Positions 4,601-61,994 of a DNA stretch of 64,000 bases are shown piece after piece (the stretch's first letter is position 1; each line of letters starts with the position of its first letter). This stretch comes from Rhizophagus irregularis (taxonomy: Eukaryota; Glomeromycota; Glomeromycetes; Glomerales; Glomeraceae). The position numbers and the translations under genes are program-made. The DNA is taken from assembly GCF_026210795.1 (NCBI RefSeq), contig NC_089433.1, positions 3,125,001 to 3,189,000 of the forward strand. Reading direction: 5' to 3'. The notes below the pieces were generated by a model. The model searched no databases. It was not told the DNA's origin and saw only the letters and a program-made list of their open reading frames with translations.

Positions 4601-4662
4601 ATATATAGTATATCTATCATAAATCCTTTAAATTTGAAAATTATATTTCAAGAAATTCTGAA

Positions 4663-10127: not shown

Positions 10128-10734
10128 TATTTTGTTCACGACCATTTGGACACTAGTACTTGTGACAATTTATCAATACTAAAAAAATATAAATACTGAT
10201 TTAAAAAGTTTTACTTAGGTAGAGCCTAATCTTCTGAAATGCTGGTATATATATAATTTATGTTTATTTAGTTGAAATTTTTCAATTTACATAGATTGAA
10301 AATCCTTTTACGAATACGCATTAAGAGGATATATTTATTTTTCTTTAATTTTATGTATTGGGGACAAAGAACGAGGGATAGATAAGAGGGAATGGTATAA
10401 TAAATATGAAAGTAAATATTTTTGGTTTATTTATAATGAAAGAAAATGATATTGAAATTTTTTTTAGAAATTAACGAAGAAAATAAAGAAACGGAAAAGA
10501 ATCAGAGAATAATAAGAACAATAAACCATGTGTATGGTGTGTATTAAGGGGAAGGTTTGTTGCATTATGTAGAAAGAAAAAATCGGAGGATAATTTAAAT
10601 CGTGGATATGAAACAAGATTCTATTAAGATAGCTTTTAAAAAGTTTTCCACAATTAAAAATTTTTAATGATTCAATAACAAACATTAAAAATATTTCTCT
10701 TTTCGCAATGATTTTAGTATTTATTGCACATTTA

Positions 10735-11673: not shown

Positions 11674-12614
11674 TAGGTCCATTTATTGATATGTCGTATT
11701 GCCAAACGCAGATGAATGTACACGTTAGTAAAGTTTACGCTTCGTAAGATAAATGGAATTTAAATGTTATATAAATCTTCATTGATTTATTATTTAAATA
11801 AAAAAGAAACTAACAGTTAAAAAGGTTTGTGGACTAAACTTTAATCTGTATCATGTGACTCATACTTTCCATCACGTCATACAATTACTAAATAAGTCTA
11901 TGATCGACTAATAATTAACCAATTGGCTAGTACTTCGTGCAGGGTTTGTCTTATTCATTTCAAACTTCAGTCATAGCAGAAGTAGTGAGGCAAATGTTCA
12001 TGGCTAAAATCCAGCTATATTATATTATAAATAGGTTAAAAATTTACAGTTTGATAAATTAAAAAGTAATATTTATTATGTACGATTTTTTTGAAATTTA
12101 ATTTTTGTTATTTCTAGCACATTTATCAAATGTCACTCTAATTTATGATTTATAAAAGTTTGAAGACACCATATTTTTGTCGTTTATAGATGATAGCCAC
12201 CATATAATGATAGATTTTCAAATGCTTTAGTCATTTCTTCAACCAAATTTTGATTTCTTACAACAAATTTTAATTTTCACGTTTAAAATTAAACGATTTG
12301 ACGTGTGATGTGAAAATTATACCATGTGACTTAGGATTGTGTAACTTTATAATTTATAAAAAACGTTTTTTTAATATTATGAAAGTAATTGAATTTCTGC
12401 GAATACTTATATAATTACACCTTCAACAATTGTTTTCCGCATCATTCAGTCCCTTCAAGGAGAATTTCCAAGTTTTGATTTTATAATTTATGAAGCAAAG
12501 AAAGCAGTAGACTGGCCTTATTAAAGATAAAAGACCATGATCGCGAGTGTAAAGTGTATAAAGCGTTTATACTTCATGAAAATATATTGTAACCATGATT
12601 AGTTTGTATTCAAT

Positions 12615-12815
12615 GATGATTTGAATGATGGCTTTTGACGACCAAATAGTATATTAATTTTGTATTTGAGGTCTGAATAGAGTATCATTGATAAAATGTA
12701 TTTTGAATAAAACTTGATAATTGATATTTTGATGATAGCTTTGACGAGCATTGAATATTTTTTGTGTATTTGAGGTCTGAATAGAGTTTCATTGAAAAAG
12801 TTTATTTTGAATTTT
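12615..12815 (+). repeat. Imperfect tandem duplication of about 110-120 bp
   Basis: Two units share GACGA...TGTATTTGAGGTCTGAATAG and a following TTCATTGA/ATCATTGA stretch. Noncoding. Confidence 0.6.
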
Positions 12816-12939
12816 AATAATTATTAAAAGAATGTTATAAATATTTACAATTGAGAATAATTAATTAGTTGATATAGATCTTTAAATTAAATTTCATAAA
12901 ATTTTAAAGAAATTAATAGTATTGTTATTTTAAGTTAAA

Positions 12940-14130
12940 ACAAGTATATGATTCTGTACAAAGCTTAAATGAAATCGGTGCTTTTGAACATTATAAGGTA
13001 TTTATCTATTTATTGCAGTTGTTTAACTTTGTAAATTTATATAATAATGAGATTTCAAATGTTTTTAGAGTTCCAGTAGTGATGACGAAAGTCCAATTGC
13101 TATCTATAAAAACATTGTTAATTTATTTAATTTAACGTAAGTAATTGATTGTTGATTGAAATCACCTGAATCAGACGAAGATGTAGAATTATGCAACGCT
13201 ATTTTAGATAAATTATCTCTTATTAATATTGAGGAACTTAGTTGGAAGGACCCTGTAGCCAGCCTTGTGCTTGATGAGAATTCGAATCTAATAAAACCCT
13301 TAGATGAGATATCACTGCAGCAATTATCTGTATATTTTTTTTAGTATTGTCTTATCATTTGCGATCTTTCACTGTACATAATGAATGAATTAATTTTATT
13401 ATTGCACTACAATTAGGAGCCAAAAGGCTTTATCTTCCCGAAATTAGAGATGAAATAAATACAAAATGTATTATGCTTCAAATGAGTTCTTTCATAGTAT
13501 TAATTTTTCACCAGTTCCTGTGAAATTTTTGCATGATTCAAAATGGAAGGAGGTTCCTTCTAAACAGAAACAAGTTGTTGATAATATTTTGCTAGTGCTG
13601 TAAGTGAATTTTTTTATTAATTTACTATAATTTGATTAATTTAATTTAACGCTAATTATTTTTAGTAAAGAAGTATGGAACAACCATACTTATTCAGATC
13701 ATAAATTTACCAAAAAATTGAACGAAAATTCATATTTCTCAGATGTAATAAATCCCTTGCTTTGTGCTTCTTTAAGTGGAATTGATCGTGACAACACATA
13801 TTTACCGTGTAAGTATTATTAACAATTAACATTTATTGGCAATTATAACCATTTTTTTAATTGTATTAATAGAAACTTATGTACTTAGAAACTACTCGTA
13901 TTTGTTGTGTATCACAAAAAAAGAAAGATGATTACATGAAACTTTGGCGTCAGTGCAATGATGGAATTACATGAGTTTATAATTCTTGTTCACCTGCAAG
14001 GAATCAATTTTGCTTGTTGGGATTACAAACTTTTGGTACAAATTTAATTAATTTAATTTATCAATTTTATAATTACTTGTGTAAGGTATTTAAATACATT
14101 TTGGCTATTGTACGTGATTTATATTTGAAT
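12940..14130 (+). pseudogene. Multi-exon pseudogene, uncharacterised family
   Basis: Coding-like blocks in order: QVYDSVQSLNEIGAFEHYK to a GTATTT donor; SSSDDESPIAIYKNIV to a GTAAGT donor whose acceptor is missing; SPESDEDVELCNAILDKL to IKPLDEISLQQLS with donor at 13330; EPKGFIFPKLEMK followed by TAA and a frameshift into KYKMYYASNEFFHSINFSPV; QKQVVDNILLVL with a GTAAGT donor; KEVWNNHTYSDHKFTKKLNE to LSGIDRDNTYLP; and a last block TKKKDDYMKLWRQCNDGIT ending in TGA. I remember this layout as a large uncharacterised family in Rhizophagus, but cannot check. The lost acceptor, frameshift and stops make it a pseudogene. A further remnant, HNLDWKKVHTNVKRLVKY, lies near 14600-14690. Confidence 0.6.
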
Positions 14131-14139
14131 GCAATCCAT

Positions 14140-14460
14140 AGCGAATCAATTTTTTTAAAAAAATATTCTATACATATTCCGGACATTTTCCGTATTAGAA
14201 GAAAATTATTAATTTTTTTTTTTAAAAAAATTCCATACATATTCCGGACATTTTCCACATTAGAAAATTATTAATTTTTTTTTAAAAAAAAATTCCATAC
14301 ATATTCCGGACATTTTCCGCATTAGAAAATTATTAATTTTTTTTTAAAAAAAATTCCATACATATTTTGGTTATTAATTTTTTTTAAAAAAAATAATTCT
14401 ATACATATTCTGGACAATTAGTAATTTTCTGTACGTATTCTGGACATTTAAAAAATTATG
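14140..14460 (+). repeat. Tandem repeat, about 65-70-bp unit
   Basis: Four decaying units of T8-A7 followed by CCATACATATTCCGGACATT and AGAAAATTATTAATT. It lies in the decayed 3' part of the pseudogene. The motif CCGGACATTTT or relatives continues to about 14570. Confidence 0.75.
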
Positions 14461-15074
14461 AACAGATGATGTGATTATTTTTTAGGACGAAAAATGGTTA
14501 TTTCCTGGATACGCTCAAATATACCAGGACATTTTCTGGACATTTTGTAGATATTTTCCGGACAATTCTTTTTTATAGGGGTGTTTATTTTCAAAAAATT
14601 CATAATTTAGATTGGAAGAAAGTTCATACCAATGTAAAAAGATTAGTAAAATACCATCATGTACAATTTATAGAGCAGTTGTAATTAAAGATTGAACAAT
14701 TGGAGTGGTTAATTTAGAGGAAATAAAAGATTATGAGAGCATTTTAATAAAATATAAAAAATTTTTGATTATTAATATTATAATATTTACAGGAATAAAT
14801 TCTTAAGTATGATTTAAGATACGTGGAAAAGTTCTTCTGAGTCAGCAATTTCAAAAAATGAGTATGATTAGTTAAAGGGTGCTCTCTCAATGTTATTTAC
14901 TAGTGCAAAAACTAATACTGTAATGTTCATAATATTAACTCATAGTGGAATTATTTGTCTCACTGGTAAAAAAACACAAAAGCAATAATTTTTTAATAAT
15001 TTAATCTCTTTAATTTTTACAAATTTAAGAATTACATGACACATGTATTGTTTAAGAAAACCTACAAAATCTAC

Positions 15075-16989: not shown

Positions 16990-18200
16990 TTAAAAATAAG
17001 CTATCCGAATTTAAGCTTTTTTTAACTTTCACTAAAAAAAACTTTTTTTTATCTTTTTTATTCCGAAAGTTTCTGAAGTTTCCTTTACTTCGGAAACATT
17101 TTTTTTTATCTTTTTTATTAGGGAATCGGCTCCAAAGTGGATAGCCGAATTCCAAGGTAAGTTTCGAAAATAATCTTCGAAACCTTTAAAAAAAACGTTT
17201 CTAACTTTTTTTTATTTCTTTTTTGTAGGAATCGGCTCCAAAGTGGATGGCCAAATTCCAAGGTAAGTTTCGAAAATAATCTTCAAAACCTTTAAAAAAA
17301 AACGTTTCTAATGTTTTTTTTTATTTTTTTTGTAGGAATCGCTCCGATGTGGATAGCCGAATTCCAAGGTAAGTTTCGAAACTAATTTTTGAAGCTTAAA
17401 GAAAAAACGGTTTTAACGTTTTTTTATTATGATTTTGTAGAAATCGGCCCAATAAGGAAGGAATCCGGTGAGTTTTCGAAGTTGGACTTCGAAAACTTTT
17501 AATAAAAACGTATACTAACATTTTTTATAATTGTTTTTGTCGGAAACCGGCTATAACGTAGATACCGGAAGTCTACTGAAGATAAGGAAACTGGCCCATC
17601 TTGGATACCAGAATTCCAGGTAAGTTTCCGAAGTTATTTTTTCGAAAACTTTAAAAAACGTATCTTAACATTTTTTATGACTTTTGTAGGAAATCGGCTC
17701 CTAATATACCGAATTCCGTGGTAAGTTTCGAGATTTAATTCAGAAAACTTTAAACTAACGTTTCTAACGTTTTTTTTTTATTTCACTTTTGTAGGAAATC
17801 GGCTCCGGCGTGGAATCCAGAATCCAAAGTGAGTTTCAAAAATAATTTCGAAACTTTTTTTTTTAAAAAAAAACGGTTTTAACGTTTCTTTCATTTCTTT
17901 TTTATAGGAAACTGCTTCGGCATGGATAATCAGCAGGTAAGTGTTAGGGGGTTTTTAAATTATTTTTAAGAAACGTTCTAACCATGATCACGTTATGTTG
18001 TAGTACAAATTAAGAAAAGTTCGAGCGAACTTTTCTTAACCATGATCACGTTAAGTTTCTTTCTTTAATTTTATAGGTTTCGGCTTCTTTAGGCGTGAGT
18101 AATCAGTAGATGAATGTTTATAGGGAAGTTTCGAAATTATCTATAAGAGACATTCTAACATTTCTTTCTTTAATTTTGTAGGTTTCGGCTTTTATGGGTG
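16990..18200 (+). other. Array A: tandem mini-exons and short introns
   Basis: Repeated units of a 27-35-nt mini-exon (consensus GAATCGGCTCCAAAGTGGAT then GCCGAATTCCAAG) and a 65-75-nt intron. Donors (GTAAG or GTGAG) lie at 17157, 17263, 17369, 17468, 17620, 17721, 17829 and 17937; acceptors end at 17228, 17335, 17440, 17542 (degenerate, CG), 17689, 17794, 17907, 18076 and 18181. Most introns begin GTAAGTTTCGAA with a nearby complementary TTCGAAAC, and carry AACGTTTCTAACGTTT about 30 nt before a T-rich tract and TTTTGTAG. Exon lengths are not multiples of three and joined exons do not keep a long frame, so a noncoding transcript is likelier than a protein. Function unknown. Confidence 0.7.
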
Positions 18201-32567: not shown

Positions 32568-33766
32568 AGGACCCCGAATAATACTGATATAACTCACAAA
32601 TGGGTTTGTGTAGAGTTTATATGAAATTACTTTTTAAACCCATAAATTGAGTTTGCGTAGATCGGTCAATTTTGGGATAACTCACATATCACGTTTGCGT
32701 AGAGTTTATAAATATATTGCATTATATGTTGATCAATTGTATAATATTGATAAAAATTAAGTTGCGCAAAACCATTAAGGATGGGTCTGTAATATATTTA
32801 TGAAGTTTGCAATATTACGGATTTTGGTAATTAATTATATATAGTAACAAAAAGTAATGCATTTCGCATTATTTTAATATTTTTTAATAAAAAAAAAGTG
32901 CGAAATGCACTACTTTAACAAAAAATGGTGAATTTCGCACCATTTTATTAACATTTTAATAGAAAAAAGTGCGAAACACACAATTTTAATAAATAATTGG
33001 TGAGTTTCGCACCATTTAATTAATATTTTAATATAAAAAAGTGCGAAACGTACCATTTTATTAATATTTTAATAGAAAAAGTGCGAAACGCACCATTTTA
33101 TTAATAATTTAATAGAAAAGTGCGAAACACACCATTTTAACAAAAAAATCGGGAGTTTCGCACATTTTATTAATATTTTAATATAAAAAAGTGCGAAACG
33201 CACCATTTTAACAAAAAAATGGAGAGTTTCGCACCATTTTATTAATATTTTAATATAAAAAAGTGCAAAACGCACCATTTTGACAAATAAATGGAGAGTT
33301 TCGCACCATTTTATTAATATTTTAATATAAAAAAGTGCGAAACGCACCATTTTGACAAATAAATGGAGAGTTTCGCACCATTTTATTAATATTTTAATAT
33401 AAAAAAGTGCGAAACGCACTATTTTAACAAATAAATGGTGAGTTTCGCATGATATTATTAATATTTTAATAGAAAAAGTGCGAAACGCACCATTTTAACA
33501 AATAAATGGTGATTTTCGCACCATTTTATTAATATTTTAATAGAAAAAAGTGCGAAACACACTATTTTAATATAAAATGGTGAGGTTTGCATGATTTTAT
33601 TAATATTTTAATAGAAAAAATGTGAAATGAATTATATTAGTAACAAAAATTTTTTTGAACTAAGATTTGGATTTGCGTAGCGTTACTATGAAAAAAAAGT
33701 TGCGTAAAGTTAATTGTAAATGCATGCCGATCATTTGTGAGCTATATTAGTATTATTCGGGGTCCT
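32568..33766. mobile_element. 1.2-kb hAT-like non-autonomous element
   Basis: Ends AGGACCCCGAATAATACTGA and its inverse, flanked by ATTATGGC at 32560-32567 and 33767-33774. It is inserted in the transposase zinc-knuckle codons: the duplicated 8 bp encode most of Gly-His-Asn. Two-thirds of it is a tandem repeat. Confidence 0.92.
32850..33620 (+). repeat. 72-bp tandem repeat with internal inversion
   Basis: About ten units, each with GTGCGAAACGCACCATTTT and the inverse ATGGTGAGTTTCGCAC, then TTATTAATATTTTAATA. Each unit can fold into a hairpin. The repeated 116-residue frame on the minus strand is an artefact of this repeat. Confidence 0.9.
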
Positions 33767-36601: not shown

Positions 36602-39600
36602 CACTGGTCAAAATCAATTCTATCGGGTACATATCGGGTACCTATATATCGGTGGCTAATCGGATAAATATCGGGTATTTTTACATATAGGGTACCCGAT
36701 AGCTAAGCTATTAGTCACTGATATTGTATATCGGGCATTGATCTATCTTACACATATCAGGTACCCGATATGTAAATTTTAATACGTAAGATTTTTATTT
36801 TGTACAACGTACTGTATTATATATAATCCGTTTCAACTAAAATTTTTTATTTAAATTCATTTTTTAGATAATTTTTATAAATAATTTTCTAAGAAATTTT
36901 AAAAGTCCATTTGAATAATATTTAATAGGGATTTTATTTAAGAAACTTTTAGATAGATTTTTTTGAGAAATTTTTTAAGAGTCCGTTTGGAAAAATTATT
37001 TTTTTAACTAAGAGGATCATTTAGAGCATTTTTGATAGAGAATTTTCTAAAGATTTGTTTGGAGAGATTATTTTTGAGAATTTTTTAACTAAAGGGACCG
37101 TTTGGAACATTTTTTGATAGAGAATTTTCTAAGAATTCGTTTGGGAAATGGTTTTTTGAGAATTTTTTAACTAAAAGGATCATTTAGGCATTTTTTGATT
37201 GAGAATTTTCTAAGAGTTCGTTTAGGGAAATTATTTTTTGTATTTTTTAATTAAGGGAATCGCTTAGGGCATTTTTGATAGAGAATTTTCTAATGATTCG
37301 TTTGGAGAGATTGTTTTTGAGAATTTTTTAACTAAAGGGAACGTTTGGAACATTTTTGATAGAGAATTTTCTAAGAATTCGTTTAGAAAATGGTTTTTCG
37401 AGAATTTTTTAACTAAAAGGATTATTTAGGGCATTTTTTGATTGAGAATTTTCTAAGAGTTCATTTAGGGAAATTATTTTTTGAATTTTTTAATTAAGGA
37501 GATGGTTTAGGGCATTTTTTGATTGAGAATTTTCTAAGAGTTCGTTTAGGGAAATTATTTTTTGTATTTTTTAATTAAGGGGATTGTTTAGGGCATTTTT
37601 TGATAGAGAATTTTCTAAGGATTCATTTGGAGAGATTATTTTTGAGAATTTTTTAACCAAGAGATCGTTTGGAACATTTTTTGATAGAGAATTTTCTAAG
37701 AGTTTGTTTGGGAAATGGTTTTTTGAGAATTTTTTAACTTAAAGGATCATTTAGAGCATTTTTGATTGAGAATTTTCTAAGAGTTCGTTTGGGGAAATTA
37801 TTTTTTGTATTTTTTAATTAAGGGGATCGCTTAAGGCATTTTTGATAGAGAATTTTCTAATGATTCGTTTGGAGAGATTGTTTTTGAGAATTTTTTAACT
37901 AAAGGGAACACTTGGAACATTTTTGATAGAGAATTTTCTAAGAATTTGTTTGGGAAATGGTTTTTTGAGAATTTTTTAACTAAAAGGATCATTTAGGGCA
38001 TTTTTGATAGAGAATTTTCTAAGAGTTTGTTTGGGGAAATTATTTTTTGTATTTTTTAATTAAGGGGATCACTTAGAGCATTTTTGATAGAAAATTTTCT
38101 AATGATTCGTTTGAAGAGATTGTTTTTGAGATTTTTTAACTAAAGGGAACGTTTGGAACATTTTTGATAGAGAATTTTCTAAGAGTTCGTTTGGGAAATG
38201 GTTTTTCGAGAATTTTTTAATTAAAAGAATCATTTAGGGCATTTTTTGATAGAGAATTTTCTAAGAGTGTTTAGGGAAATTATTTTTTGAATTTTTTAAT
38301 TAAGGGGATCGTTTAGGGCATTTTTTGATAGAGAATTTTCTAATGATTCGTTTGGAGATATTATTTTTGAGAATTTTTTAACCAAAGGGACTGTTGGAAC
38401 ATTTTTTGATAGAGAATTTTTTTGATAGAGAATTTTCTAAAAGTTTGTTTGGAAAAATTATTTTTTGAGAATTTTTTAACTGAAGGTATCATTTGATAGA
38501 GAAATTTCTAAGAGTTCGTTTAGGAAAATTATTTTTTGTATTTTTTAATTAAGGGAATCGCTTAGGGCATTTTTGATAGAGAATTTTCTAATGATTCGTT
38601 TGGAGAGATTGTTTTTGAGAATTTTTTAATTAAAGGGAACGTTTGGAACATTTTTGATAGAGAATTTTCTAAGAATTTGTTTGGGAAATGGTTTTTCGAG
38701 AATTTTTTAACTAAAAGGATCATTTAGGGCATTTTTTGATTGAGAATTTTCTAAGAGTTCGTTTAGGGAAATTATTTTTTGAATTTTTTAATTAAGGAGA
38801 TCGTTTAGGGCATTTGATAGAGAATTTTCTAAGGATTCGTTTGGAGAGATTATTTTTGAGAATTTTTTAACTAAAGGGAATGTTTGGAACATTTTTGATA
38901 GAGAATTTTCTAAGAGTTCGTTTGGGAAATAGTTTTTCAAGAATTTTTTAATTAAAAGGATCATTTAGGGCATTTTTTGATAGAGAATTTTCTAAGGATT
39001 CATTTGGGGAGATTATTTTGAGAATTTTTTAACCAAGGGATCATTTGAAACATTTTTGATAGAGAATTTTCTAAGAGTTCGTTTGGGGAGATTATTTTTA
39101 AGAATTTTTTAACCAAAGGGATCGTTTGGGGCATTTTTTGACAGAAAATTTCCAGGAGTTCATTTGGGGAAATTATTTTTTGGGATTTTTTAAACTAAAG
39201 GGATCATTTAGGACATTTTATTTTTAATAAAGAAATTCTAAGAATTCATTTGGAAGATTTTTTGAGATTTTTTTAATAAATCTTCTAAGGGTTCATTTGA
39301 AGAAATTTTTTAAAAAAAGTTTTTTAACTAGAGGGGTCATTTCAAATATTTTTTTGATGAGAAATTTTCTAAGGGTTCATTTGGAAAGATTTTTTTTTGA
39401 TAATTTTTTAATCGAAGGGGTCATTTGGATTGAGAAATTTTTGTTTTACGACGTAATTTTACCAAATTTAATTATAAATGTATTCAGGCTATAAAATAAC
39501 ATGTGGTAAGTTACGTTACGTAATATTGTTATCATGTGATCACATGATTTAAATATTTACATTTCGCATTTTTGTTTATCTTATTAAAACCTTTTCTTCG

Positions 39601-41268: not shown

Positions 41269-41481
41269 AATAGTAATAAATACTGCAAGTGTTGGTAAAA
41301 TGAGTATGAGTGTCGGTAAAATGAGTGTTGATAAAATGTATCTGTCAGTAAAATGTGTGTCGGTAATGTTAACTAGATCCCCTGCGCATGTGCGCACTCC
41401 ACGTGACTTATTAAAATTAATTAAATTCGATTGGCTATGTGTCGATTTTTTTAATTTTATTTTTTTATTTTTTTTTCTTTA

Positions 41482-42060
41482 GAAACGTTTTAACGAAATG
41501 GACGAAAGTAAGTGTTTCTTCGTTATTTTTCATTTGCTTTGTTTAAAAACATTTCTTATTAATTTTTTTTTTTGTAAAAAAACCTTTTAGAAGCGAAATA
41601 GGTGAAAGGCAACTAGGTAAGTCAATTTTTGTTTGCTTTGTTTAAGAACATTTTCTAACGTCTATTAAATTTTTTTTGTAGGAACATCTCCTGGAGGCGG
41701 AATGGACCTCTGGAAATGAAAGGTAAGGGAGGAAGTCTTTTTTTTCCTTTTTTTTGCTTGTTTTGGTTTAAGAACGTTTTTAACATTCTTTTGTTAATTT
41801 TTTTCTTAGAAAAACTCTTGAAGGTGTCCCCTGAAGGTGAAATGGATTCCTGAACATGAAAGGTAAGGGAAGAGGGTCTTGTTTTTCACTCTTTTCATTA
41901 GTTTCATTTTAGAAACGTTTTTTAACATTCTTCTAATAATTTGTTTTTGTAGGAACACTTCTGGGACTAAATAGAAGAAGGGTGAGTGCTTTTTCCGTTT
42001 TTTTCATTTTTTTTTGTTTAGAAACGTTCTTCCATTAATTTTTTTTTAGGGGTACTTCTT
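41482..42060 (+). other. Array B: tandem mini-exons and short introns
   Basis: Five introns can be placed: 41518-41590, 41617-41681, 41723-41809, 41863-41952 and 41982-42049, all GT-AG with GTAAG or GTGAG donors and T-rich acceptors. Mini-exons are 26-53 nt; three share GAAC..TC(C)TGG(A)G and a ...GAAATGAAAG end just before the donor. Each intron carries an AGAACGTTTTTAACATTCTT-like element 30-40 nt before the acceptor, matching the branch-point element of arrays A and C; the donor-side hairpin is not clear here. Exon lengths are not multiples of three. From 42070 to 42800 no gene is seen. Confidence 0.6.
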
Positions 42061-48823: not shown

Positions 48824-50750
48824 ATGGGAGTGACTGTTTCAACTGAAGACGTTAGTTTATTGCAAGACTTCGGGTCTAAGTCTAAAGAGGAACAAGAAAA
48901 AGTTATAGAAAAAGCAGGTTTTGTTGTTGAAGAGACAGATAAAAGAATAGCAGAGTATATGGCACTAGCGGACTCACAAGCAGTAGTGGTACAGAGACTA
49001 TGTGAACTAGTATATAATAAAACAAAAGACAGTATGATAGAAGAAGCTCAACAACAAATGGTTCTAGCTCGACAAGAATGGGAACAACATACAGAAATTA
49101 AAGAACGAAGTATGAAGCAAGAACTACAAAAATTATTGGATGTAGTGAATAAAAAAGACTATTTAATTAGTCACGAAACTTCAGTGGTAGAGGAAATCAC
49201 ATCTACAAATGAATCAGAACGCTCAGGAGCTTCTAATGGTAACGGTCTTTTTGAAGGACAGAATTTTTATAATTCAGATTCTCAATCTTCAGGATTCAAC
49301 GAACGACTACACAAAGAGCTGAATATTGGTTCTTGTGTAATAAAGTCAGACACCAATGAAAATGAGATGAAAGGTATTAGAACTACTAAAGGAAAAAATA
49401 TGTCAATACACAGAGCGGCTGACGTGGAAAATCAGGAGCATTACCATATTGGGATAAGATCATATACTATAAGTGGTAAATTGTCGGATCAGCAGAAAAT
49501 AGATTACGTCAAGAATTTAATTCAGAAATATAATATTTCTTACCAGAGTATAGACGCACATATATTGTAGTTGCTGTTTCTAGTAATGATGAGGTAGAAA
49601 AAATTCTTGATACTTCAGGAAAGGATAGAGAGTTTCCTTACAAGTTCATACCCATTATTAGTTTAAATGCAACATTGAATGAACAAGTTATCTGGCTTAC
49701 CAAAGTAGATAAATCTTTTTCACAACAGGAAGTATGCGAGGCGGTAATTAATACATTAGGTGAAGTTCAACATATTAAAAAGATAGAGTACAGATATAAT
49801 AATTCTTTTAGAGTAACGATAAAAGTAACGTGTTCCGATGTCACTTTCAATAACACATGGTCGATTGAAATTGGCAAAGGAAGAGCTGAAGTTTGGCCGG
49901 AGAGGTTGAGTACAGAAGAAAAAAAGAAACGCAAAACTTTTAAAGCATGGATAAATAATGTAGATAAAGATACTACAGAAAGTAGTTTTACGAGACAATT
50001 ATATAATTTTAACGCAAAGAGTTGGCTTTTAGTGGATAGTGGTAATACACTAAGATTAGAAGTCACATTTGACAACAATCAAGACATGTTAAGATGTGTG
50101 AAAAAAGAATTCGTATTTGAAGGAAGAGGTTATAGATGGGAAATGGAGAACAATGACAATAAACAAATTAGGAATTTTAACAAATCGATTAAAAAAGAAA
50201 GAGAAATCATGTGTTATAATTGCGGTAGTATGGGACATATGGCCAAATTTTGTCAGAATAATAATTTTCAACAGCAAGGTTATAGAAATCAGGAAAGAGT
50301 TAAAAGTGAAGAAATAGGACTGAGATGCTACAGTTGTGGTAATGTAGGACATTTGGCGAGATTTTGTCAAAATCATCATTTTTTTTATCAAAAAGAAAAT
50401 AGAATTCAAAGAAGCAGCGGGGTCAAGGATCAGGAATAAGATGTTTTAATTGTAAAAAAATTGGACATTTAGCAAGGGATTGCAGAAACGAATACAGTAA
50501 TAGTTTCAATGGAACTGGTAAACAAGGATATAAAAATCAAGAAAAGTTTCAATCACAAAATCATCAAAGACAAGATTATAATATAGAGTATCAGAGAGGT
50601 AATAGGTTTTTTCATGCCCAAGGTAATCCACAATTACAACATCAATACAGACAACAATTTCGTGAACAAAGGTATGGAAATAGATTTAATCAACAACGAT
50701 ATGCAGGGAATGGTTCTCAGAATGGAGGTAACAACTTCAGGAAATACTGA
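48824..50750 (+). pseudogene. Retrotransposon ORF1 (gag-like, CCHC)
   Basis: Starts MGVTVSTEDVSLLQDFGSKS. The first 248 codons are rich in Gln and Glu and probably coiled-coil (EEAQQQMVLARQEWEQ). A shift near 49555 moves the frame; it continues as YIVVAVSSNDEVEKIL and an RRM-like middle region (EQVIWLTKVDKSFSQQEVCE, KRKTFKAWINNVDKDT). Three zinc knuckles follow: CYNCGSMGHMAKFC, CYSCGNVGHLARFC and, after a second frameshift near 50430, CFNCKKIGHLARDC. It ends with an Asn/Gln-rich tail at the TGA 50748-50750, overlapping ORF2 by 137 nt in another frame. ORF1 proteins bind the element RNA and accompany it to the target. Two frameshifts make this copy inactive. Confidence 0.82.
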
Positions 50751-53700
50751 AGTTGCAAATAATTTTAAATCAATAAAGACAAAAGAAAGGAGCGGGAAAG
50801 GCATAGAGGAGTTGAAGGTGGAGGAAATAGACCATTATAATTCGAATAAGAGAGGAAGAGAACAAAATATAGAAATTTTAGATAATATCAATATAAGAAC
50901 AAAGAAAAACAAAAAAATAGATAAAAATAGATATAAAAATATACAAAAACAAATTAAAACAGACAAAAATATAAAAAAACTGGCAGTTTATAACGTACAA
51001 GGGTTAGGGAAAGAGGACAAATATGGTTTATTAGTGGATGCTTTAAAGGAAAACAAATGGGATATTTTGGGTTTATGTGAAACAAAGCTTAAATCAGAGG
51101 CGGCAAAATTCAGATTTATAGGTTTAGATAATTATATCAGTTACAGTGCATGTAACGAAAACTCGAGCAAAGAAGGAGTGACTTTGTTAATTAAAAAGTT
51201 GCTGGCATATCATGTAACAAATATAGAAAGAATAGAAGGAGTAGCAATTAAAGTGGATCTAGTTTTTAAAAATAAGGTTAAAAATTTTAGGTGTATTTTA
51301 ATATATAGACCGATTGAAAAATTAGAAAATGTAGTAAAAGTTCAAGAAATTCAAGATAAGTTAACAAAGTGGAATGATTGTGACTATGATAAATGGGATT
51401 TAGTAGTAATGGGAGATCTTAATGAACATTATAAGGTAGAAGAGTTCTTAGATAAGGGTCTTAATAGCGTTAAAGGAAAAAAATGCAAAATAATTAATTG
51501 GTTATTAAAAAATAATTTTATTGATTCTGAATATATCATCAATAGTTTTAATGTAGACAGTAATTTTACGTGGAAGTCAGGTAATAATTGTAGTAGAATT
51601 GATTATATTTGGATTAGAGATTCTATGGATTTTTTATTAGAAGATTTTAAGGCATTTGAATTTGAAGATTTTGTTGAGAGCGACCATAGACTAATAGAAA
51701 TAAAATTAAAGGATATTAATGAAGAAATAAAGGAGAGAGAAGAAGTTACATTAGATGTAAGTGAAGTTAGTACTATATTGGACAGAAATAAAGTACAAGA
51801 GAAATGGAAAGAATTTGCAGAAATCATAGAAAATAAGTTGAAGGTTAGTATAGCTAATGAATATGATATGGGTATTGAAGGCACGTGGAAAATGATTAAA
51901 GATTGTTTTATGGAAGGGGAAAAAATATTACCAAAAAAAGAAATTAAGAAAATGAGAGTTTCGGGAAATGATCTACTATTACGTGATAAAGAATTTAAAA
52001 AGATTTTGCAAATTTATCAACGAAGTAAAAAGATCAGGACAAGATTTAAAAAATTAAAAAAGGTTATAGCAATGCAGTTGGATGAAATATCACAAATTGA
52101 CAAAGTCTTATATGATAATAATAGAAAAATTATTAACCACAATAATTTGACGATGCAAGAGGAATACAAGTTTAATACATATAAACTGGAAGAAATTAAT
52201 CAAGAGAATTGGGAAAGTCTTAACAATAAGGTTAAGAATATTAAAAAAGATTTGGAAAATATTGGAGAAAGGATAAAACATAAACAGATTAGAGAAAAAA
52301 TTATTAAAAGACAACAATTAGCGATATCGAATCCAGGTAGTTTTATTAGGAAAATATTTGAAAACAAAAAACGACATGTTATTGATTTTTCTAGGTTGGT
52401 ATGTAAACATGAAGAGGAAATTGATATTATAGTGGATAAAGAAGAAATCAAAAATAAAGTGTATGTGCATTATAAAGAATGGACAAAAAAAAGAAGCATT
52501 GATACACAGGTCGAAGGGGCGCCATTGTCCAAAATTCAAAAAATGCAAATTCCCCATTTTCCTGGAAAATGGTGGAAAATTGTGGAAAATGCTGCATTAC
52601 GCTGAGCAATTTTTTGGAATAGCATTGTTACAACATTGTCCGATTTAGCAAATCTTATGAAATTTTGGGAAAATGCTACATTATATCTCAAATGTAACAT
52701 TTTTGTAACATTTCGTAACATTGTTATAACATTGTCATTAAAATCAAATTTTGCTTTTTTTTTGTTAAATGTTCCAATTTTCTTGCAAATGGTGCATTTT
52801 TATGAAAATTTCACATTTTACCTCAAATGTAATAACATTTAATAAAATTGTTATAACATTGTCAATTAAAATCAAATTTTGCTTTTTTTTTGTCAAATGT
52901 TCCAATTTTCTTGCAAATGGTGCATTTTTATGAAAATGCCACATTTTATCTTCAATGTGATATCATTGTAACAACATTTCATAAAATTGTTATAACATTG
53001 TCAATTAAATTCAAATTTTGTCAAATATTCTGATTTTCTTGCAAATGGTGTATTTTTTTATGAAAATTCTATATTTTCTGTCAAATGTTGCATATTTTCA
53101 GCAAATTTTACGTTTTTTTGGTCAAAATGTTTCATTTTCGTCAGAATGTTAAGATTTTACATTTTTTTTTGAAAATGCTCAGTAATATAGCATTACACTG
53201 GAAAATGTAGCATTTCACCAAATTACACTAAAAAGCATCACAATTATCTCATTTTTTGGAAAATTCCACATTACATTAAATTATACTAAAAAATGTAGCA
53301 CTATACTAGATTATGCGGCATTGCACTAAAAAATACCACAATTACACTAGACAATGTAGCATTACACTAAAAAGTACCACAATTATCATATTTTTTAGAA
53401 AATTTCGTGTTATGCTGGAAAATGTAACATTATGCTAGAAAATTCAGAATTGCACTAAAAAATACCACAATTGCACTAGACAATGTAGCATTACACTAAA
53501 AAGTACCACAATTATCATTTTTTTTTAAAAAAATTTCGCGTTATACTGGAAAATGTAACATTATGCTAGAAAATGCGGAATTGCACTAAAAAACGCGGAA
53601 TTGCACTAAAAAACACAAAAAAAAATACTACAATTACATTGGATAACATAGCATTACACTTAATTACATTAAAATTGATGATAATTTTTATTTATTTAAT

Positions 53701-53814
53701 TACGTACATTATTAAATTTATAATATTTATATTTTAAACGCATTATTTAACATTAAACACATTGTTAATATAACACGATGTGTTGTGATGTAATTTAATA
53801 CTAAACCTTACTAC

Positions 53815-54155
53815 TGAAGACTCCCTCTTTTTGTCACTATAAACAGGCGGAGGGAGCAGCAATGGCTCTCCCCCTATAGGTACTTTATGACCTCTACCTG
53901 TTTACAGAGGAGGGGCTTTTCGTAAAGTATTAGTTAATAGATATATATATATGTATATATAAGCATATATATACATCTATTTAAAATTATTAAAATAAAA
54001 AAAAAAATTCCGGGGCGGGGGGAAAGCCCCTATTTATATAAAATTATATATCACGTGCGTCACGTGATATTACTTAATAATTACCGCAGCTTCAGCTGCG
54101 GTATAACGAAAAAAAAAATTAAGCTTTTTTTAGCAAAAGCTTAATTTTTTTTTCT
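53815..54155 (+). other. Cluster of stem-loops upstream of array C
   Basis: Successive inverted repeats: CTCCCTC with GAGGGAG (53820-53850); GGGGAAAGCCCC (near 54019); TATCACGTG with CACGTGATA (54047-54071); ACCGCAGCTTCAGCTGCGGT (54082-54101); AAGCTTTTTTTAGCAAAAGCTT with flanking A/T runs (54112-54152). A pyrimidine tract (54158-54300) follows. This reads like the 5' part of a structured RNA ahead of the first donor at 54319. Confidence 0.5.
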
Positions 54156-54318
54156 CACGTCCTCTTTCTTTCTTCCCTTTCCCCTTTCCCTTTCGTTCCC
54201 TTTCCCTTTCCCTTTCGTTCTCTTCCTCCCTTTTCGTTTTATTTCCCTTCCCTTCGCCCTTTTCCCCTCTCTTTCTCTCCCCTTCCCCTTTCCCTTCCCG
54301 GAAAATTCCAACGAAATG

Positions 54319-55452
54319 GTAAGTTTCGAAGCGTTCGCTTCGAAACTTTTAATATATTTTTTTAATTTCTTTTAGAAAATGTTTCTAACGCTTCCTATAC
54401 TCTCTTTTTTTTTAGATCTCGATATTCGATTTCAGAAATTTAGGAAATTAAGGGTAAGTTTCGAAGCGAGTTCGCTTCGAAACAGTGTTTTTTTTTAATT
54501 TCTTTAGGAAACGTATCTAACATTTCTTATTTTTTTTTTTTGTGTAGGTCTTTCGGCATGCTTCTTTGGGATTTGAAATGGTAAGTTTCGAAGCATATGC
54601 TTCGAAACTTTTTGAAAATTTTTAATTTCTTTAGGAAACTTTTCTAACGTTTCCTTTCTTTCTTTTTTTATGTAGGTCTTTCGGTATTCGACTTCGGGAA
54701 GCAAGGAACCGAAAGGGTAAGTTTCAAGCGTTTCGCTTCAAAACTTTTTTAAAAAAAATTATTTTTTTTTAATTTTTTGTAAGGAAACGTTTCTAACGTT
54801 TCCTATTTTTTTTTTTGTAGAGATTTTTCGATATTCGACTTTGGAAGGCGAATCGGTAAGTTTCGAAGCGTGTTGTTGTACGCTTCAAAACTTTTAAGAA
54901 AAAAATTTTTTTCTTTTTTTTGTAAGGAAACGTTTCTAAGTTTCCTTTTTCTTTTTGTAGGAACGCCGGACGTTTGGATGATGAGTTCGAAATGAACCGG
55001 TGAGTTTCGCAACATTGTGTTGCGAAACTTTATTTTTATTTATTTCTTTTTAAGAAACGTTAACTAACGTTTCTTTATTTTACTTTTTGTAGGTTCCGGA
55101 CATTAGGATGATGGTAAAGTTTCGCAATGTTACATTGCGAAACTTAATTTTTATTTTTTTTATTATAAGAAACGTTTATATTAACGTTTCTTTTTTACTT
55201 TTTGTAGGTTCTGGATGTTAGAATGATGGAAACGAACCGGTAAGTTTCGCAATGTTACATTGCGATACTTAATTTTTTATTTTTTTTTTATTAAAAGAAA
55301 CGTTAACTAACGTTTCTTTCCTTCTTTTTGTAGATTCTGGACGTTTGGATGAAACGACCCGGTGAGTTTCGCAACGAATCGTTGCGAAACTTAATTTATT
55401 GTTTTTTTTTAAAGAAACGATATTAAACGTTTCTTTCCTTTACTTTTTGTAG
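54319..55452 (+). other. Array C1: nine structured introns with mini-exons
   Basis: Introns 54319-54415, 54454-54547, 54581-54675, 54717-54820, 54856-54960, 55000-55092, 55114-55207, 55240-55333 and 55362-55452 (91-105 nt); mini-exons 38, 33, 41, 35, 39, 21, 32 and 28 nt. Every intron starts GTAAGTTTC, GTGAGTTTC or close to it, and the sequence right after GT forms a 10-13-bp hairpin. The arms differ between introns yet stay complementary: TTTCGAAGC/GCTTCGAAA, TTTCGCAAC/GTTGCGAAA, TTTCGCAAT/ATTGCGAAA. A second, weaker inverted repeat (GGAAACGTT...AACGTTTCC or AGAAACGTT...AACGTTTCT) surrounds CTAAC, a good fungal branch point, in most introns. Then a T-rich tract and TTTTTGTAG. The exons share TTCTGGACGTTTGGATGA-like sequence. 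No conserved reading frame. Confidence 0.75.
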
Positions 55453-55471
55453 GACAAAGGAAACTCTGGGC

Positions 55472-55736
55472 CAGGGACGATGATTTTTTGTGATCACAGA
55501 ATTTCACAGAAAATCACAAAATTTGGTTATAAAAATGTTGATAATTTTCAAGTTTTTGGCCTGATTTAGGATTTGAAATCATTATAATTCTGGCAGACAC
55601 TAAATTTGACCAGAATTTACGAATAGTAATGTTGGCCAACCTTGCATAATTCTGGCCAAATCACAAAATTTCACAAAATTTATTTTTATCACACACAAAA
55701 TTTACTTTATACCGCCGCAAAAAATCATCGTCCCTG
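55472..55736. mobile_element. 265-bp hAT-like MITE in an array C mini-exon
   Basis: Ends CAGGGACGATGATTTTTTG and its inverse, flanked by CTCTGGGC (55464-55471) and CTCCGGGC (55737-55744), an 8-bp duplication with one mismatch. It contains ATAATTCTGGC twice, as does the MITE at 4262-4600. Confidence 0.88.
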
Positions 55737-55754
55737 CTCCGGGCATTTGGTGGG

Positions 55755-56581
55755 GTGTTCTTTTATTATATAACGAAACATTATTTAAGTTTCGTTTATT
55801 TTTTGTTTTTTTATAGGTTAAAGGAATGAAAGGGAAAGGTGAGAACGAAAGAAAAGAGAAAGATGAGAACGAAAGGGAAAGGTGAAAAATGAAAGGGGAA
55901 TGTGAAAAATGAAAGGGGAAGGTGAAAAATGTAAAGGAAAAGAGAAAACGAAAGAGAAGACGAAAGGGAAGGGTGAGAACGAAAGGGAAAGGGAAAATGA
56001 AAGGGAATATTTCGAAGGTATACTTCGAAATATTTTTTATTTTTATTTTTTTCAACGAAACGGTTATTAATGTTTCGTTTTTTTTTCTTTTTTAGGTTCA
56101 GCAGCTCATTGGACATATGGAATTCAACATTTCGAAGGTATGTAACTTCGAAATGTTTCTTTAATTTAATTTTTTCACGAAACATAAATTAATGTTTCGT
56201 TTTTTTTTCTTTTTAGGTTCAGCGGCTTATTGGACGTATGGAATTCAACATTTCGAAGGTATATAACTTCGAAATGTTTCTTTAATTTAATTTTTTTCAT
56301 GAAACATAAATTAATGTTTCGTTTTTTTTCTTTTTTAGGTTCAGCGGCTTATTGGACGTATGGAATTCAACATTTCGAAGGTATATAACTTCGAAATGTT
56401 TCTTTAATTTAATTTTTTCATGAAACATAAATTAATGTTTCGTTTTTTTTCTTTTTTAGGTTCAGCGGCTTATTGGACGTATGGAATTCAACATTTCGAA
56501 GGTATATAACTTCGAAATGTTTCTTTAATTTATTTTTTTTTACGAAACGTATATTAATGTTTCGTTTTTTTTCTTTTTTAG
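55755..56581 (+). other. Array C2: purine tract and four 121-bp exon-intron units
   Basis: After an intron 55755-55816 comes a purine tract of GAAAGGGAAAGGTGAGAACG words (55817-56010), then introns 56018-56095, 56138-56216, 56259-56338, 56381-56459 and 56502-56581 separated by identical-length 42-nt mini-exons that start GTTCAGCGGCTTATTGGACG. Here the donor lies in a loop: the exon end ACATTTCGAAG pairs with CTTCGAAATGT in the intron, leaving GTATATAA or GTATGTAA unpaired. A second hairpin CGAAACAT...ATGTTTCG lies before the T-rich tract and TTTTTTAG. Units are near-identical, so this block is a recent tandem amplification. Confidence 0.75.
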
Positions 56582-56894
56582 GTTTTCTATTTTGGCACTG
56601 GTGCGGATTATCCATAGATTATCGGATATCTGATAAATATAGATTATCGTTAAATAATAATAATTGTGCATTTATTAATAAATAAAATTATAATAGATTA
56701 TAAATCAGTGTTTTAAATTGTCATGGCGTTTACACTAAATTGTTTAAAATTATTACTAAATTTCGCTCAATTGTCTGAAAATTTCACTCAATTATCTGAA
56801 ATTATTGCAAAATTTCACTAAATTATCTTCGAAAATGTTGCATTTATATCGTTTACACTCAATTGTCCAAAATCGGTAAGACATTTTCACTCAA

Positions 56895-57430
56895 TTGTCC
56901 GAAATTATCCTAAATTTCACTAAATTATTCAAAAATCTAGCTAACATTTACCAAAAAAATGCAAAATTCACCACAATTTTCCACAATTTGTATTACGTTT
57001 GCACAACATTGCTGAAAAATTCACCTAAATTTTCAACAATTTACATAATATTACTAAAAATACACTACAATTTACCATTATTTGCATTACGTTTGCATAA
57101 CATTACTAAAAATTTAACTAAATTTACCACAATTTGCACTTCGTTTGCATAGCATTACTAAAAATTTAACTAAATTCACCACAATTTACATTACGTTTAC
57201 ATATAATTACTAAAAATTTAACTAAATTCACCACAATTTGCACTTCGTTTGCATAAAATTACTAAAAATTTGCCTAAAATTCACCACAATTTACATTACG
57301 TTTGCATAAAATTACTAAAAATTTAACTAAATTCACCACAATTTACACTTCGTTTGCATAACATTACTAAAAATTTGCCTAAAATTTCCCACAATTTAAT
57401 GATAATTTACTGAAAAATTTCTCAACATTT
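56895..57430 (+). repeat. Right subterminal repeats of the 5.1-kb element
   Basis: About eight units of 55-60 bp with ACTAAAAATTTAACTAAATT, CACCACAATTT and RCATTACGTTTGCATAA. Such arrays near an end are usual binding sites for CACTA-type transposases (inference). Confidence 0.7.
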
Positions 57431-60400
57431 GAATTAGGAATTCTGTAGGAATTCCGCCATTTTGACAAAATTTGCCAAATTGTAAGTCCTCCATTATCCC
57501 AAAATTGTAACACAATTTACCTCAATTTACCGGGATAATTCTCAATTTGCCAGAAAAATTCCAGGCAAATTTTGCGATAATGACATCTGTTCGACCTGTG
57601 ATATGAACGAATGGGATTATTGGAAACATGAATATGAACCAAGGACAGATATAGATGAATGTATTTATGAGTCGTTAATGGAACAAATCGAATTAAGTGA
57701 ATTCGAAGAAATATTAGCATCAACTAACAATTGGAGGGCACCAGGAATTTCAGGAATCACATACGATTTCATGAAGCATAACAGGAATGTAATGAAAGGA
57801 AAACTAGTTGATCTAATGAATTCATGTTTAAAGACAAGGAAATTTCCTAAAGATTGGTTGAAAGGCCAAATTTTTCCGATTCCAAAAAAAGAAGATTGGG
57901 GAGGTGATATTTCGATCACACGTCCAATTACGTTATTAGAGTGTGTAAGAAAATGTATGTTAAAAATTTTAACAAAACGATTGACAAAAATTCTGAAAGA
58001 ATACAAAGTTTTGAAGGGTTATAATTTTGCGGCATTAGAGGGAGAGAGTTGTTTTGAACCGATAAAAATTTTACAATCAATTATAGAAGACGCTAGACTT
58101 CGTAAGAAAGAATGCTGGGTATTAATGATGGACATCTCCAAAGCCTATGATTCAGTTTTAGGCTTTTTGTTAATAAAGGCTTTGGAAAGATTAAAGATTC
58201 CAGAAGGATTTGTTGATATTGTGGAAGAAATTTTTTATAATAGAGAGAATAGAGTGATGGTACAGAATGATTATACAAATTTTTATGAGGTTGAGGACGG
58301 CATAGACCAGGGTGAAGTATGGTCCCCGATCCTGTGGAGGATTTTTTTTGAGCCATTACTAGATCGTTTAAAAAAAGAAGACAGTTGGGGTTATGAAATA
58401 AAAGCACAAGAAATTATTAATATTAATACAGGATGGACGAATATTATTAATGAGAAAATTAATCATTTAGCCTTCATGGATAACGCTAATCTAATTAGTA
58501 GTAGTAAAGAGAATCTAGTAAAACTATACAATATTTGTAATAGCTTCTTTAGATTAAGTGATATCAAAGCAAACCCAAAAAAATATGAACTGTTAGTAAT
58601 AGGAAACAAGATTGAGGATAAGGAAGAAGAGAATCAAGTTTTATTAGATGGATGTAGTGTTAAAATAAATAACTCAGAAGAAGGTGCTCGGTTTTTAGGT
58701 GTTTGGTTTAGTGCTCAAGCAAATTTTAAATCGCATAACAGGATAATTGAAGATTGTGTGAAAAGATTAACGAATGTGATGCGTTGGAAAAAATTAACTG
58801 CAAAAGAATGTATTTATTTATGGAACACTGTGATAATTCCTGTAGTAGAATATCAATTGCAATGTACAGTGTTAAATAAAGTACTTATAGAGAAATTGGA
58901 TAGTAAGATCCGAAGTGTAATTAAACAAAAATGTGGTTTAGCAGCTCATACAAGTAATAGTGTAATTCATGATAAAGATTTTTTGGGTTGTAAGAGCGTT
59001 GAAGCACTACAAAAAGAATCGTTAGTTAAAAGTATTTTATATTGTATAAATCATGAAGGATTACTAGGAAAGATTATGAAAATTAAAATAGCGTCTATTA
59101 AAGAGATTATTTGGTTTAATGGATGCATTTTTAACGATATAAAACATATTTTTAATAATAGAAAGCAAATTTGGTTGTTAGAAAGGTTAAAGGTTTTGGC
59201 AGAAGATAATTTCAAGTTGTGCAATCATAATAGATTGCATGGACATGTAGTTAGTGGTGGACATATGTCAATTGATGAGATGATTGACAAAAATATTTTG
59301 AGTTGTAGTGTTAAAAGTTTGAGTTTGGTCAATATAATGTATATTACGCAATTGATTGATGAAAATAACAGATTAAAAACATGGAGACAAGTAACAGCAG
59401 AAGCAGGACGAAGTAGTAAAGGCAAAATACCAAATTGGTTCAAAGAATTAGAAAATAAACTAATGAAAAATGATCAAAGAGAAGTTTTTGCGTGTTATGA
59501 GTTAATTAGTGAAGTTTATGATTTGTATAATAATAATGTGATATTAAGGGACTCTTGGGAAAAATTTAATGAAATTTATATTGGTAGAGAGTATGATGAT
59601 TTAATTGAGTTTGATAATAGATTTAAGCTTATAGAAAAGTGTTTTGTTGGAGGACAAGGTTTTAGGTTATTAGAAAAGGAATATTTAGATTTAGTTGACG
59701 TAAATCAAAGTGATTTAAAAATTTATACTGATGGTAGTAAAAAAGAGTATGTTAATGGTATAGGTTGGGTGATTTTTAATGGGGATAAGATTTTAAGTAA
59801 AGGTCGTTTAAAAATAAAAGGAAATTATGAGGTTTGGGAATTAGAATTGGTTGCAATAGTAGCAGCGTTAATGATTGTAAATAAGGGTAATAGTGTTAAA
59901 ATTATTACAGATAGTAAAATAGTAAAAGATTTATGGGATAAGCTAGTGGAGGTTAAAAATGGTATATGGTCAACGAGAAGAATTTGGAATGTTAAATTTA
60001 GTGGTATTTGGAAGTGGGTAAGATATATGGTTAAATATCTAGATTTAAATATAAGTGTATATAAGATTAAAGGACATTCTGGTGATTTAGGCAATGAAAT
60101 GGCTGATAGTTTGAGTAAATTAGCATTAAGAGAGACGGAGGGTAGTTTAATAACATATTTGAATATTCCAGAAGACATGTCATAGGAATATAATTTATAT
60201 TGGAAAAGAGAGTTAATCAAAGAAGCACCAAGAGATTTTATGAAAGAATTTAATCAAAGATATTATAAAGCGGCTTGGCTGTCATTAGATATTAGTAGGA
60301 CTTTAAGAGTTAATATTTTGGATGCGCAGATTGATTGGAAAAATTCTTATATGATAATAATGGAAGAATATAAAGGTGACATCACGGATTCTAATAACAA

Positions 60401-61994
60401 GACGGTGGTATACAAATTAAAAAATTTTCTTGAAATTTTACCTACAATGACTCTGTTAAATAAAAGAAATCTTGAAGTTTACAGAAGTGGCAAATGTGTA
60501 AGATGTCAATTCATGATGGAGTCATGGACGCATTTATGGATTTGTAAAGAAAATGAAACATCGATTATACAAATTATTAATCAAGCTTTTGAAATTCTTA
60601 AAGAAAATTGGATAATCAGAATTTTAGATTGGATTTCAATTATTATGCAAGACTTTTACAAATTTTAAATGATCGGTCATATTCAATATTTAATGGTAGA
60701 ATTTTTCATGAAGCAATTAAAGGTATGATTAATTCACGTCTATATTTAAATATTAGTGATCCAATTTTTACAACAGCAATTAAAGGGTTTGTTCGAGACA
60801 TACATATATTAGCGAGAGATGTTATTTGGGTAGAAAGGTGTAAGGAGGTTAATAAATGGGAACGAAGTGTCGGTATCTCTAGGATAGTGAAAAAGAATTG
60901 TAAATTAGAGACATCTTCTTTACCATCTATAGGGTCAAATAGTAAACATAGAAATCAATTTATATATGATGTGTCACAAAGATGGCTGGGTAGTTACCTG
61001 GCAAATATGGAGCATAGGAAAAATTTATGGTTTAGTTTAGATATTTCTGATTTATGGTCGTATCATAATTTAGTTAAATTTAGAAGTTCTAAGTATGCAT
61101 TAAATTATAGTATTTTAGACTAGTTTGTAGATAGATACTTTATTATGAGATATATTATGTCTAAATTATAACAAATTGTGTTTCAATAATTGTTATAATA
61201 TTAATAAAGTTTGGTTAAAAAATAAAAAAAAAAAAAATATTTTTTATAAATAATATAAATAAAAAACTAGTATAAAATAATATACTATTTGTAAAAAAAA
61301 TAATATTAGCAAAATATAAACAAAAAAAAAGAAATTTAATTAGTAATATTATCATTATTTTAAATATAAAAAAGAAATAATAAAAAGTTAGTAATATTAT
61401 TAATATATTAGTTAGATATAAAAAAGTAATAAAACGATAGTAGTAATAATGTTAGTAATATATTAAAAAAATTAAATAAAATACATAAAAGTAAAAAAAA
61501 ATATAATTAATATATGTTAACATATAATATTAATATAAAAATAAAAACATAAAACGGTGTACATATAGTTGTTTAATTAATATTGTTAAAATTCACCATT
61601 ACAATTCCTGAGAGATATTAGTGAAAGTAATTGTTAATTGATATACGTGCATATCACTTTTTGTATAATTAGTAGTTTGGTACAAATATATATTATATAT
61701 TATCAAAATAAGTTTTTTATTTAATTTTTATTATTATATGTTAAAATAATTTTGGTATTCATTTTTATTGTTTTTTTTTTCTAAAAAAAAAGAAAAGAAA
61801 AGAATATTTTTGAAAAAATAAACAAAAAATAAACAATAACGTGTTATTAATGCATGTGATCAGTGATCAGCTGAATTTTAATTGGTTAAATATAGAAATG
61901 CGAAAATTAAAAAGCAGAAGTATTTTTTTTAAAATTTAAATCATACAGATTGTTTTTAAAGTTTAATTAGTAATTTAAAAGTTCTTTTTTTTAA

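Follow-up and report, generated by a model that had tools for sequence, protein, structure and literature searches.

Why should a fungal genome carry nine short introns in tandem, each with a hairpin at its 5' splice site? The locus lies in a 64,000-nucleotide stretch of the Rhizophagus irregularis genome, here called the window (G000:C5:3125001-3189000), and our genome-wide counts cover 146.7 Mb in 32 contigs. An earlier note on this DNA had described nine consecutive introns at 54319-55452, with a hairpin directly after each GT, a second hairpin around a branch-like motif and exons of 21-41 nt, and had read them as a selected RNA structure within a noncoding product. The observation is sound, and its object is larger than first reported: the intron array (array A) is cargo of a transposon family.

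Sequence and folding confirm nine tandem GT..AG intron-like units (Table 1), whose internal exons measure 38, 33, 41, 35, 39, 21, 32 and 28 nt. The order of elements is repeated from unit to unit: GT with its hairpin, the branch-motif hairpin, a pyrimidine tract and AG. The first hairpin has 11-14 pairs and starts at +2 to +5 in eight of the nine units, with a single mismatch in units 54856 and 55240; only unit 54717, whose minimum free energy (MFE) fold lacks it, departs from the claim that a hairpin follows every GT. The second hairpin surrounds the branch-like motif, and is poor in unit 54319. MFE z-scores of the nine introns run from -2.7 to -7.1, and array A contains 13 perfect stems against a shuffle mean of 0.37 (highest 2 among 30 shuffles). 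The LINE flanks contain one each, against 0.63 on the left and 0.40 on the right in shuffles. Since window positions 1-15000 also exceed their shuffles (11 stems versus a mean of 3.12, highest 5 among 8 shuffles), the excess of hairpins is not confined to array A; the density is 11.5 perfect stems per kb in array A versus 0.7 per kb there. GT..AG, branch motif and pyrimidine tract stand in U2-type order, a label that we apply by motif only, and judged from these signals the arrays are likely to be spliced. Retrocopies, which would have offered proof of splicing, were absent among 24 candidates: their 76 matches were at most 53 nt long, about one exon each, and none was an intronless copy.

The surroundings of array A are those of a DNA transposon. 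In searches with the flanks (40 matches scored of 90 candidates per side, window copy included), 33 of the 39 other scored matches start at window 52502-52506 on the left and the remaining six lie 1-18 bases outside that range; on the right, the end falls at 57599-57607 in all 39. The CAC-initial terminal inverted repeat CACAGGTCGAA occurs at both ends in inverted orientation, and the 3-bp target-site duplication is perfect in 12 of 13 copies examined, L018 being the exception. Removal of the insert with one ATA kept restores a LINE frame that is continuous over the 50 codons translated, and the LINE pieces on either side have matches to endonuclease, reverse transcriptase and RNase H families. 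The LINE as a whole (48824-61123) comprises a zinc-knuckle-like open reading frame (ORF), recognized by eye, and endonuclease and RT/RNase H ORFs, and is split by the transposon. A free-standing noncoding gene is ruled out, as the array sits inside a transposon with shared ends, target-site duplication and empty site.

The family is identified by a relative, L009, that shares the ends of the window element (5' 673 bases at 85%, 3' 560 bases at 94%); only these end regions align (matches over 250 bases, E 1e-20). In L009 an 813-codon open frame matches the family's transposase, Transposase_21 (tnp2, PF02992; E 1.1e-9), and close relatives of this transposase occupy at least 12 places, L009 included, the others being 82-98% identical (55 scored of 1,576 candidates). 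Many of the 1,576 first-look tnp2-like candidates, 55 of which were scored, are open at 44-54% identity; on sequence, CACTA elements seem very abundant in the R. irregularis genome. No long ORF of the window element resembles tnp2, and we therefore term it non-autonomous; taken together, the shared ends, the inverted repeats, the target-site duplication and the tnp2 of L009 mark it as a non-autonomous member of the CACTA/EnSpm group that probably has partners able to mobilise it. It is like CACTA/EnSpm/CMC (Plavaka) transposons in its CAC.. inverted repeats, its 3-bp duplication, the tnp2 of a same-ended relative and its repeat-rich subterminal regions, and unlike them in having no visible tnp2 itself. 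Array A and a second array of the same element, array C, are cargo of this transposon, inserted inside a LINE ORF. That the array might lie within an autonomous transposase gene is ruled out, because the tnp2 frame of L009 is opposite in strand to the array orientation. Alignments of six sister copies (L010, L013, L014, L017, L018 and L019) pass over the nested MITE-like stretch between the two arrays, with a gap from about 55454 to about 55736; with its TIR and near-identical 8-bp flanks, the insertion looks hAT-like.

Table 1. Transposon, arrays and accompanying features in the window. The first position of each array intron is its donor; the last position of array A intron 9 is the final acceptor of that array.
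Feature	Positions	Strand	Basis
Non-autonomous CACTA/EnSpm-type DNA transposon, 5,096 bp	52505-57600	+	Shared ends of relatives, terminal inverted repeats (TIRs), target-site duplication
Target-site duplication ATA, left copy	52502-52504	.	Copy comparison
5' terminal inverted repeat CACAGGTCGAA	52505-52515	+	Repeat search
5' subterminal tandem repeats, 128-129-nt and 20-41-nt periods	52669-53614	.	Repeat detection
Leader with TATAAA at 53838-53843 and three perfect hairpins	53790-54318	+	Sequence comparison, stem counts; promoter role putative
Exon 1 pyrimidine tract, complementary to purine tract	54144-54303	+	Complementarity z -5.0 in window copy
Array A intron 1 (branch hairpin poor)	54319-54415	+	Folding, GT..AG
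Array A intron 2	54454-54547	+	Folding, GT..AG
Array A intron 3	54581-54675	+	Folding, GT..AG
Array A intron 4 (MFE fold without first hairpin)	54717-54820	+	Folding, GT..AG
Array A intron 5 (one stem mismatch)	54856-54960	+	Folding, GT..AG
Array A intron 6	55000-55092	+	Folding, GT..AG
Array A intron 7	55114-55207	+	Folding, GT..AG
Array A intron 8 (one stem mismatch)	55240-55333	+	Folding, GT..AG
Array A intron 9	55362-55452	+	Folding, GT..AG
Nested MITE-like insertion, TIR CAGGGACGATGATTTTTTG, flanks CTCTGGGC/CTCCGGGC (7/8 alike)	55472-55736	.	Six sister copies skip the stretch in alignments
Purine tract, complementary to exon 1 pyrimidine tract	55933-55998	+	Complementarity score
Array C intron 1; donor in hairpin loop	56018-56095	+	Folding
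Array C intron 2; donor in hairpin loop	56138-56216	+	Folding
Array C intron 3; donor in hairpin loop	56259-56338	+	Folding
Array C intron 4; donor in hairpin loop	56381-56459	+	Folding
Array C intron 5; donor in hairpin loop	56502-56581	+	Folding
3' subterminal tandem repeats, 52/105-nt period	56963-57398	.	Repeat detection
3' terminal inverted repeat TTCGACCTGTG	57590-57600	-	Repeat search
Target-site duplication ATA, right copy	57601-57603	.	Copy comparison

Neither the place of the array in a transposon nor the repetition of its leader across the genome had been recorded in the earlier note: the leader (53790-54150) recurs at 87-100% identity in at least 40 near-full-length places, window included (40 scored of 204 candidates). 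The five array C introns have MFE z-scores of -6.2 to -7.6, and their four separating 42-nt exons stay in a single reading frame. Array C donors number 3 to 7 per copy among seven sister copies, and under the chain rule described below the chains have 4 to 7 introns. The two arrays treat their donors differently. In array A most donor bases from +3 to +6 are paired (+3/+4 of 54454, +3/+4 of 54717 and +3 of 55114 are the exceptions), in line with the proposal that the donor is folded away, whereas in array C they are unpaired with probability 0.99-1.0, save +6 of 56018, in the hairpin loop. With donors mostly buried in one array and displayed in the other, donor masking is not common to both.

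Related introns are widespread. The exact hairpin AAGTTTCG N4-24 CGAAACTT occurs 947 times per strand genome-wide (control 9) and is preceded by GT in 652 matches (control 0), a few sites being counted on both strands. Chained GT..AG introns flank 278 mini-exons from 27 of the 32 stretches examined, under a chain rule that itself requires GT, AG and hairpins and with sister copies that are not independent. A covariance model with 31 training rows, seven of them from array A, recovers all nine array A and all five array C introns, the training rows being found by construction. The window holds further repetitive structures of its own. A second mini-exon array (17065-18181) has 5' hairpins, branch motifs and a period of about 105 nt, and no CACAGGTCGAA repeat was found near it with up to one mismatch allowed. 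A third, at about 41450-42050, consists of intron-like units with no perfect hairpins and is possibly an older relative. Long tandem arrays lie at 32862-33627 and 37000-39219, with a 72/143-nt TTTCGCACC repeat and an 81/242-nt repeat.

The central claim made for these introns was that their stems covary, and the paired changes are real: Watson-Crick partners change together, and the arm variants GAAGC/GCTTC, GCAAC/GTTGC and GCAAT/ATTGC are all present, with further types elsewhere in the genome. When 31 introns are aligned with MAFFT without regard to structure, 94.2% of helix 1 cells and 82.4% of helix 2 cells pair, percentages that lean upward because two of the 33 introns selected (L016:2538-2619 and L016:3995-4072) were dropped for want of a clear hairpin. 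Changes on both sides affect 53 cells; shuffles gave 21.0, and none of the 500 reached 53. The paired-cell and covariation measures likewise lie above all 500 shuffles. Two of the five measures do not: 9 pairs changed on both sides versus 7.4 (127 of 500 as high), and 22 further pair types versus 22.9 (400 of 500 as high). Over 70 distinct inner sequences, the free inner stem positions 1-4 are Watson-Crick in 66/70, 64/67, 51/65 and 40/60 cases, against shuffle means of 33.9, 50.2, 26.4 and 29.2 and maxima of 43, 56, 37 and 37 among 500, in statistics that ignore the relatedness of the sequences.

Once ancestry is modelled, the signal shrinks. We clustered 199 introns by average linkage (single linkage merged 155 of them) and applied a home-made test, distinct from R-scape, with a tree-based null of 40 alignments to 85 cluster representatives. 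A single column pair among 3,486 reached E<0.05 (E 0.025), and rescaling the same home-made test to 22 preset pairs brought three below 0.05; non-stem pairs take ranks 2, 3 and 6, and other stem pairs take ranks 4, 5, 7, 8, 12 and 14 (E 4.65 to 27). Departures from Watson-Crick pairing in the outer stems of 160 distinct hairpins show no excess of G.U over A.C (59 versus 63 over seven pairs), nor do those in the fetched loci show a sense-strand G.U preference (14 versus 14). Two CpG pairs hold most of the departures (49 of the 59 G.U and 51 of the 63 A.C), as decay after insertion would give; older RNA selection would then be hidden rather than disproved. Given the ancestry-modelled result and the lack of a G.U excess, the data do not favour RNA selection over DNA-level palindromes. 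To call the pairing direct evidence for a selected RNA structure was therefore too strong, although selection on RNA is plausible from the sequences.

The likeliest alternative is that the hairpins are DNA palindromes, kept by the binding of transposon or host proteins or perfected by template switching during replication, with the intron signals an older, obsolete layer. The equality of G.U and A.C departures speaks for it, as do three perfect hairpins in the non-intronic leader where 0.10 are expected, and stems that by eye are almost wholly Watson-Crick in 19 consensus introns (clusters with at least three members from three loci; 66 smaller clusters omitted). CACTA proteins bind subterminal regions, but these regions hold one hairpin each versus 0.37 and 0.33. 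Palindromes alone also leave unexplained why GT flanks the hairpin on exactly one side in 123 of 134 fetched cases (both sides in 1, neither in 10; the majority of these loci were picked for GT-hairpins), and why branch motif, pyrimidine tract and AG follow in fixed order. The outermost pair, left out of the count above as donor position +3, has G.U 16 times and A.C twice, which fits GTRAGT donors. We regard this alternative as unlikely overall, if still one to be taken seriously.

A further possibility is that the array is a source of small RNAs: poorly spliced hairpin introns and a pyrimidine/purine stem would give rise to double-stranded RNA or cause spliceosomes to stall, in either case feeding RNAi. 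The tracts of exon 1 and the purine exon are complementary beyond composition in six of seven copies scored (z -2.8 to -7.3; L015, at -1.4, is the exception, and L010, L020 and L021 went unscored with one tract missed by the rule), and the mostly paired donors of array A would suit poor splicing. In Cryptococcus, stalled spliceosomes can trigger siRNA (PMC6643885, as far as the portion consulted goes). Against this possibility, hairpins near 30 nt would be short for Dicer, and the first hairpin measures about 26-36 nt in introns of 91-105 nt, so that these introns do not qualify as mirtrons either. On balance a small-RNA source seems rather improbable to us.

Alternatively, the cargo could be what is left of a captured protein-coding gene with several exons, its exon-intron unit having been amplified and its exons having once encoded short peptide repeats. 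In 9 of 27 loci (WIN, that is the window, and L010, L013, L015, L017, L019, L029, L030 and L031) the longest spliced ORF lies above the 95% level obtained with shuffled exons, and exons of distant arrays resemble one another by eye. In L031 (G000:C30:85100-88100) exon 1 and eight predicted mini-exons give 107 amino acids versus a shuffled 95% level of 61. In 6 of 10 copies printed (WIN, L010, L013, L017, L018 and L019) the longest ORF joins the purine-rich exon in frame to the 42-nt exons of array C; this evidence is weak because a 42-nt unit is a multiple of three, and a stop-free repeat of that length keeps frame trivially. Two of the nine long ORFs, in L015 and L029, are confined to the leader exon. 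The lengths of the 278 exons spread over the remainders 0, 1 and 2 modulo three (109/78/91, 42-nt exons included), and joined mini-exons contain stops in every frame in 25 of 27 loci, the exceptions W17 and L016 covering 118 and 160 nt. In array A, exons 2-9 joined (267 bases) have 4, 4 and 3 stops in the three frames, which bears out the earlier view that its exons share no frame, although one frame is open for 59 codons over exons 2-6. A captured gene thus appears quite unlikely; array A of the window looks noncoding from its sequence, as had been proposed, whereas array C and some distant arrays may be coding.

The hundreds of similar introns within one genome recall introners, mobile introns that seed new introns in host genes. 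Introners and introner-like elements are likewise sequence-similar, numerous and linked to DNA transposons in the part of PMC9860276 consulted, which cites van der Burgt 2012 in its reference list and whose main text contains neither 'Rhizophagus' nor 'Glomero'; the window introns are unlike them in being arrayed inside a larger transposon rather than single in host genes. By eye, 17 of 18 apparently isolated GT-hairpin matches adjoin further mini-exon units, and the 3-kb stretches around 13 isolated or nearly isolated matches gave 169 model matches at E up to 0.01, some on the opposite strand, with several in 11 stretches and matches at one or two places in L022 and L023. The sole other case among the 18, L052 (G000:C3:1332500-1333900), has a hairpin intron in what by eye reads as an ordinary coding gene; this could be a coincidence or a host intron built to the same plan. 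With spread explained by whole transposons and tandem duplication, introners are a very improbable account.

Other known systems fit less closely. By the rule given for yeast zipper stems (PMC12350175, in the part consulted), the array A stems, which start at +2 to +5, are no zipper stems and would have to open; in array C the stems surround the donor. Stwintrons with near-terminal inverted repeats (PMC12403724, likewise in part) are also repeated fungal introns with complementary elements, but in stwintrons pairing of the repeats joins both ends of a nested intron, whereas here each simple intron has two local hairpins. No Rfam family matches within the window at gathering score, and ARAGORN with the bacterial code finds no tRNA or tmRNA there. 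SP7 effector repeats were dropped, the consulted text of PMC11333574 reporting a conserved intron ahead of the first repeat and no such array, as were AGL proteins, which have one or two introns in that of PMC8786786. CMC-EnSpm/Plavaka elements of R. irregularis are reported as expressed, without particular reference to the window copies, in two papers (PMC11075540, PMC8647823) whose main text, as consulted, leaves introns unmentioned. Such mini-exon arrays were not met in the literature searched, to which that statement is limited.

We suggest that the locus is probably a non-autonomous CACTA/EnSpm transposon whose cargo resembles a transcription unit and is built from tandem mini-exon and intron pairs, which would make it a spliceable minisatellite. 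Directly established are the transposon and its scattered relatives, the repeated order of hairpins and splice signals, the differences in unit number between copies, and the stops in every frame of array A. The TATA-led leader would drive a transcript, from which the spliceosome would remove the introns singly, by intron definition. Both hairpins would fold during RNA synthesis, those of array A being opened before U1 and U6 pairing and those of array C presenting the donor in a loop, and the hairpins could thereby tune the timing and efficiency with which each mini-intron is spliced. Units would multiply by tandem duplication, and copies would spread with tnp2 from relatives that have common ends. 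Counting against this explanation, G.U is not preferred among the stem mismatches, the leader has hairpins although it is not intronic, the 24 candidates included no intronless copy, and the cargo of a DNA transposon need not be transcribed.

If unspliced, the arrays are striking DNA palindromes that mimic introns. It is possible, and we advance it tentatively, that they represent a new type of cargo for a transposon: a spliceable minisatellite that expands itself and whose mostly noncoding transcript would be spliced many times in series, with hairpins that bury the donor in array A and display it in array C.
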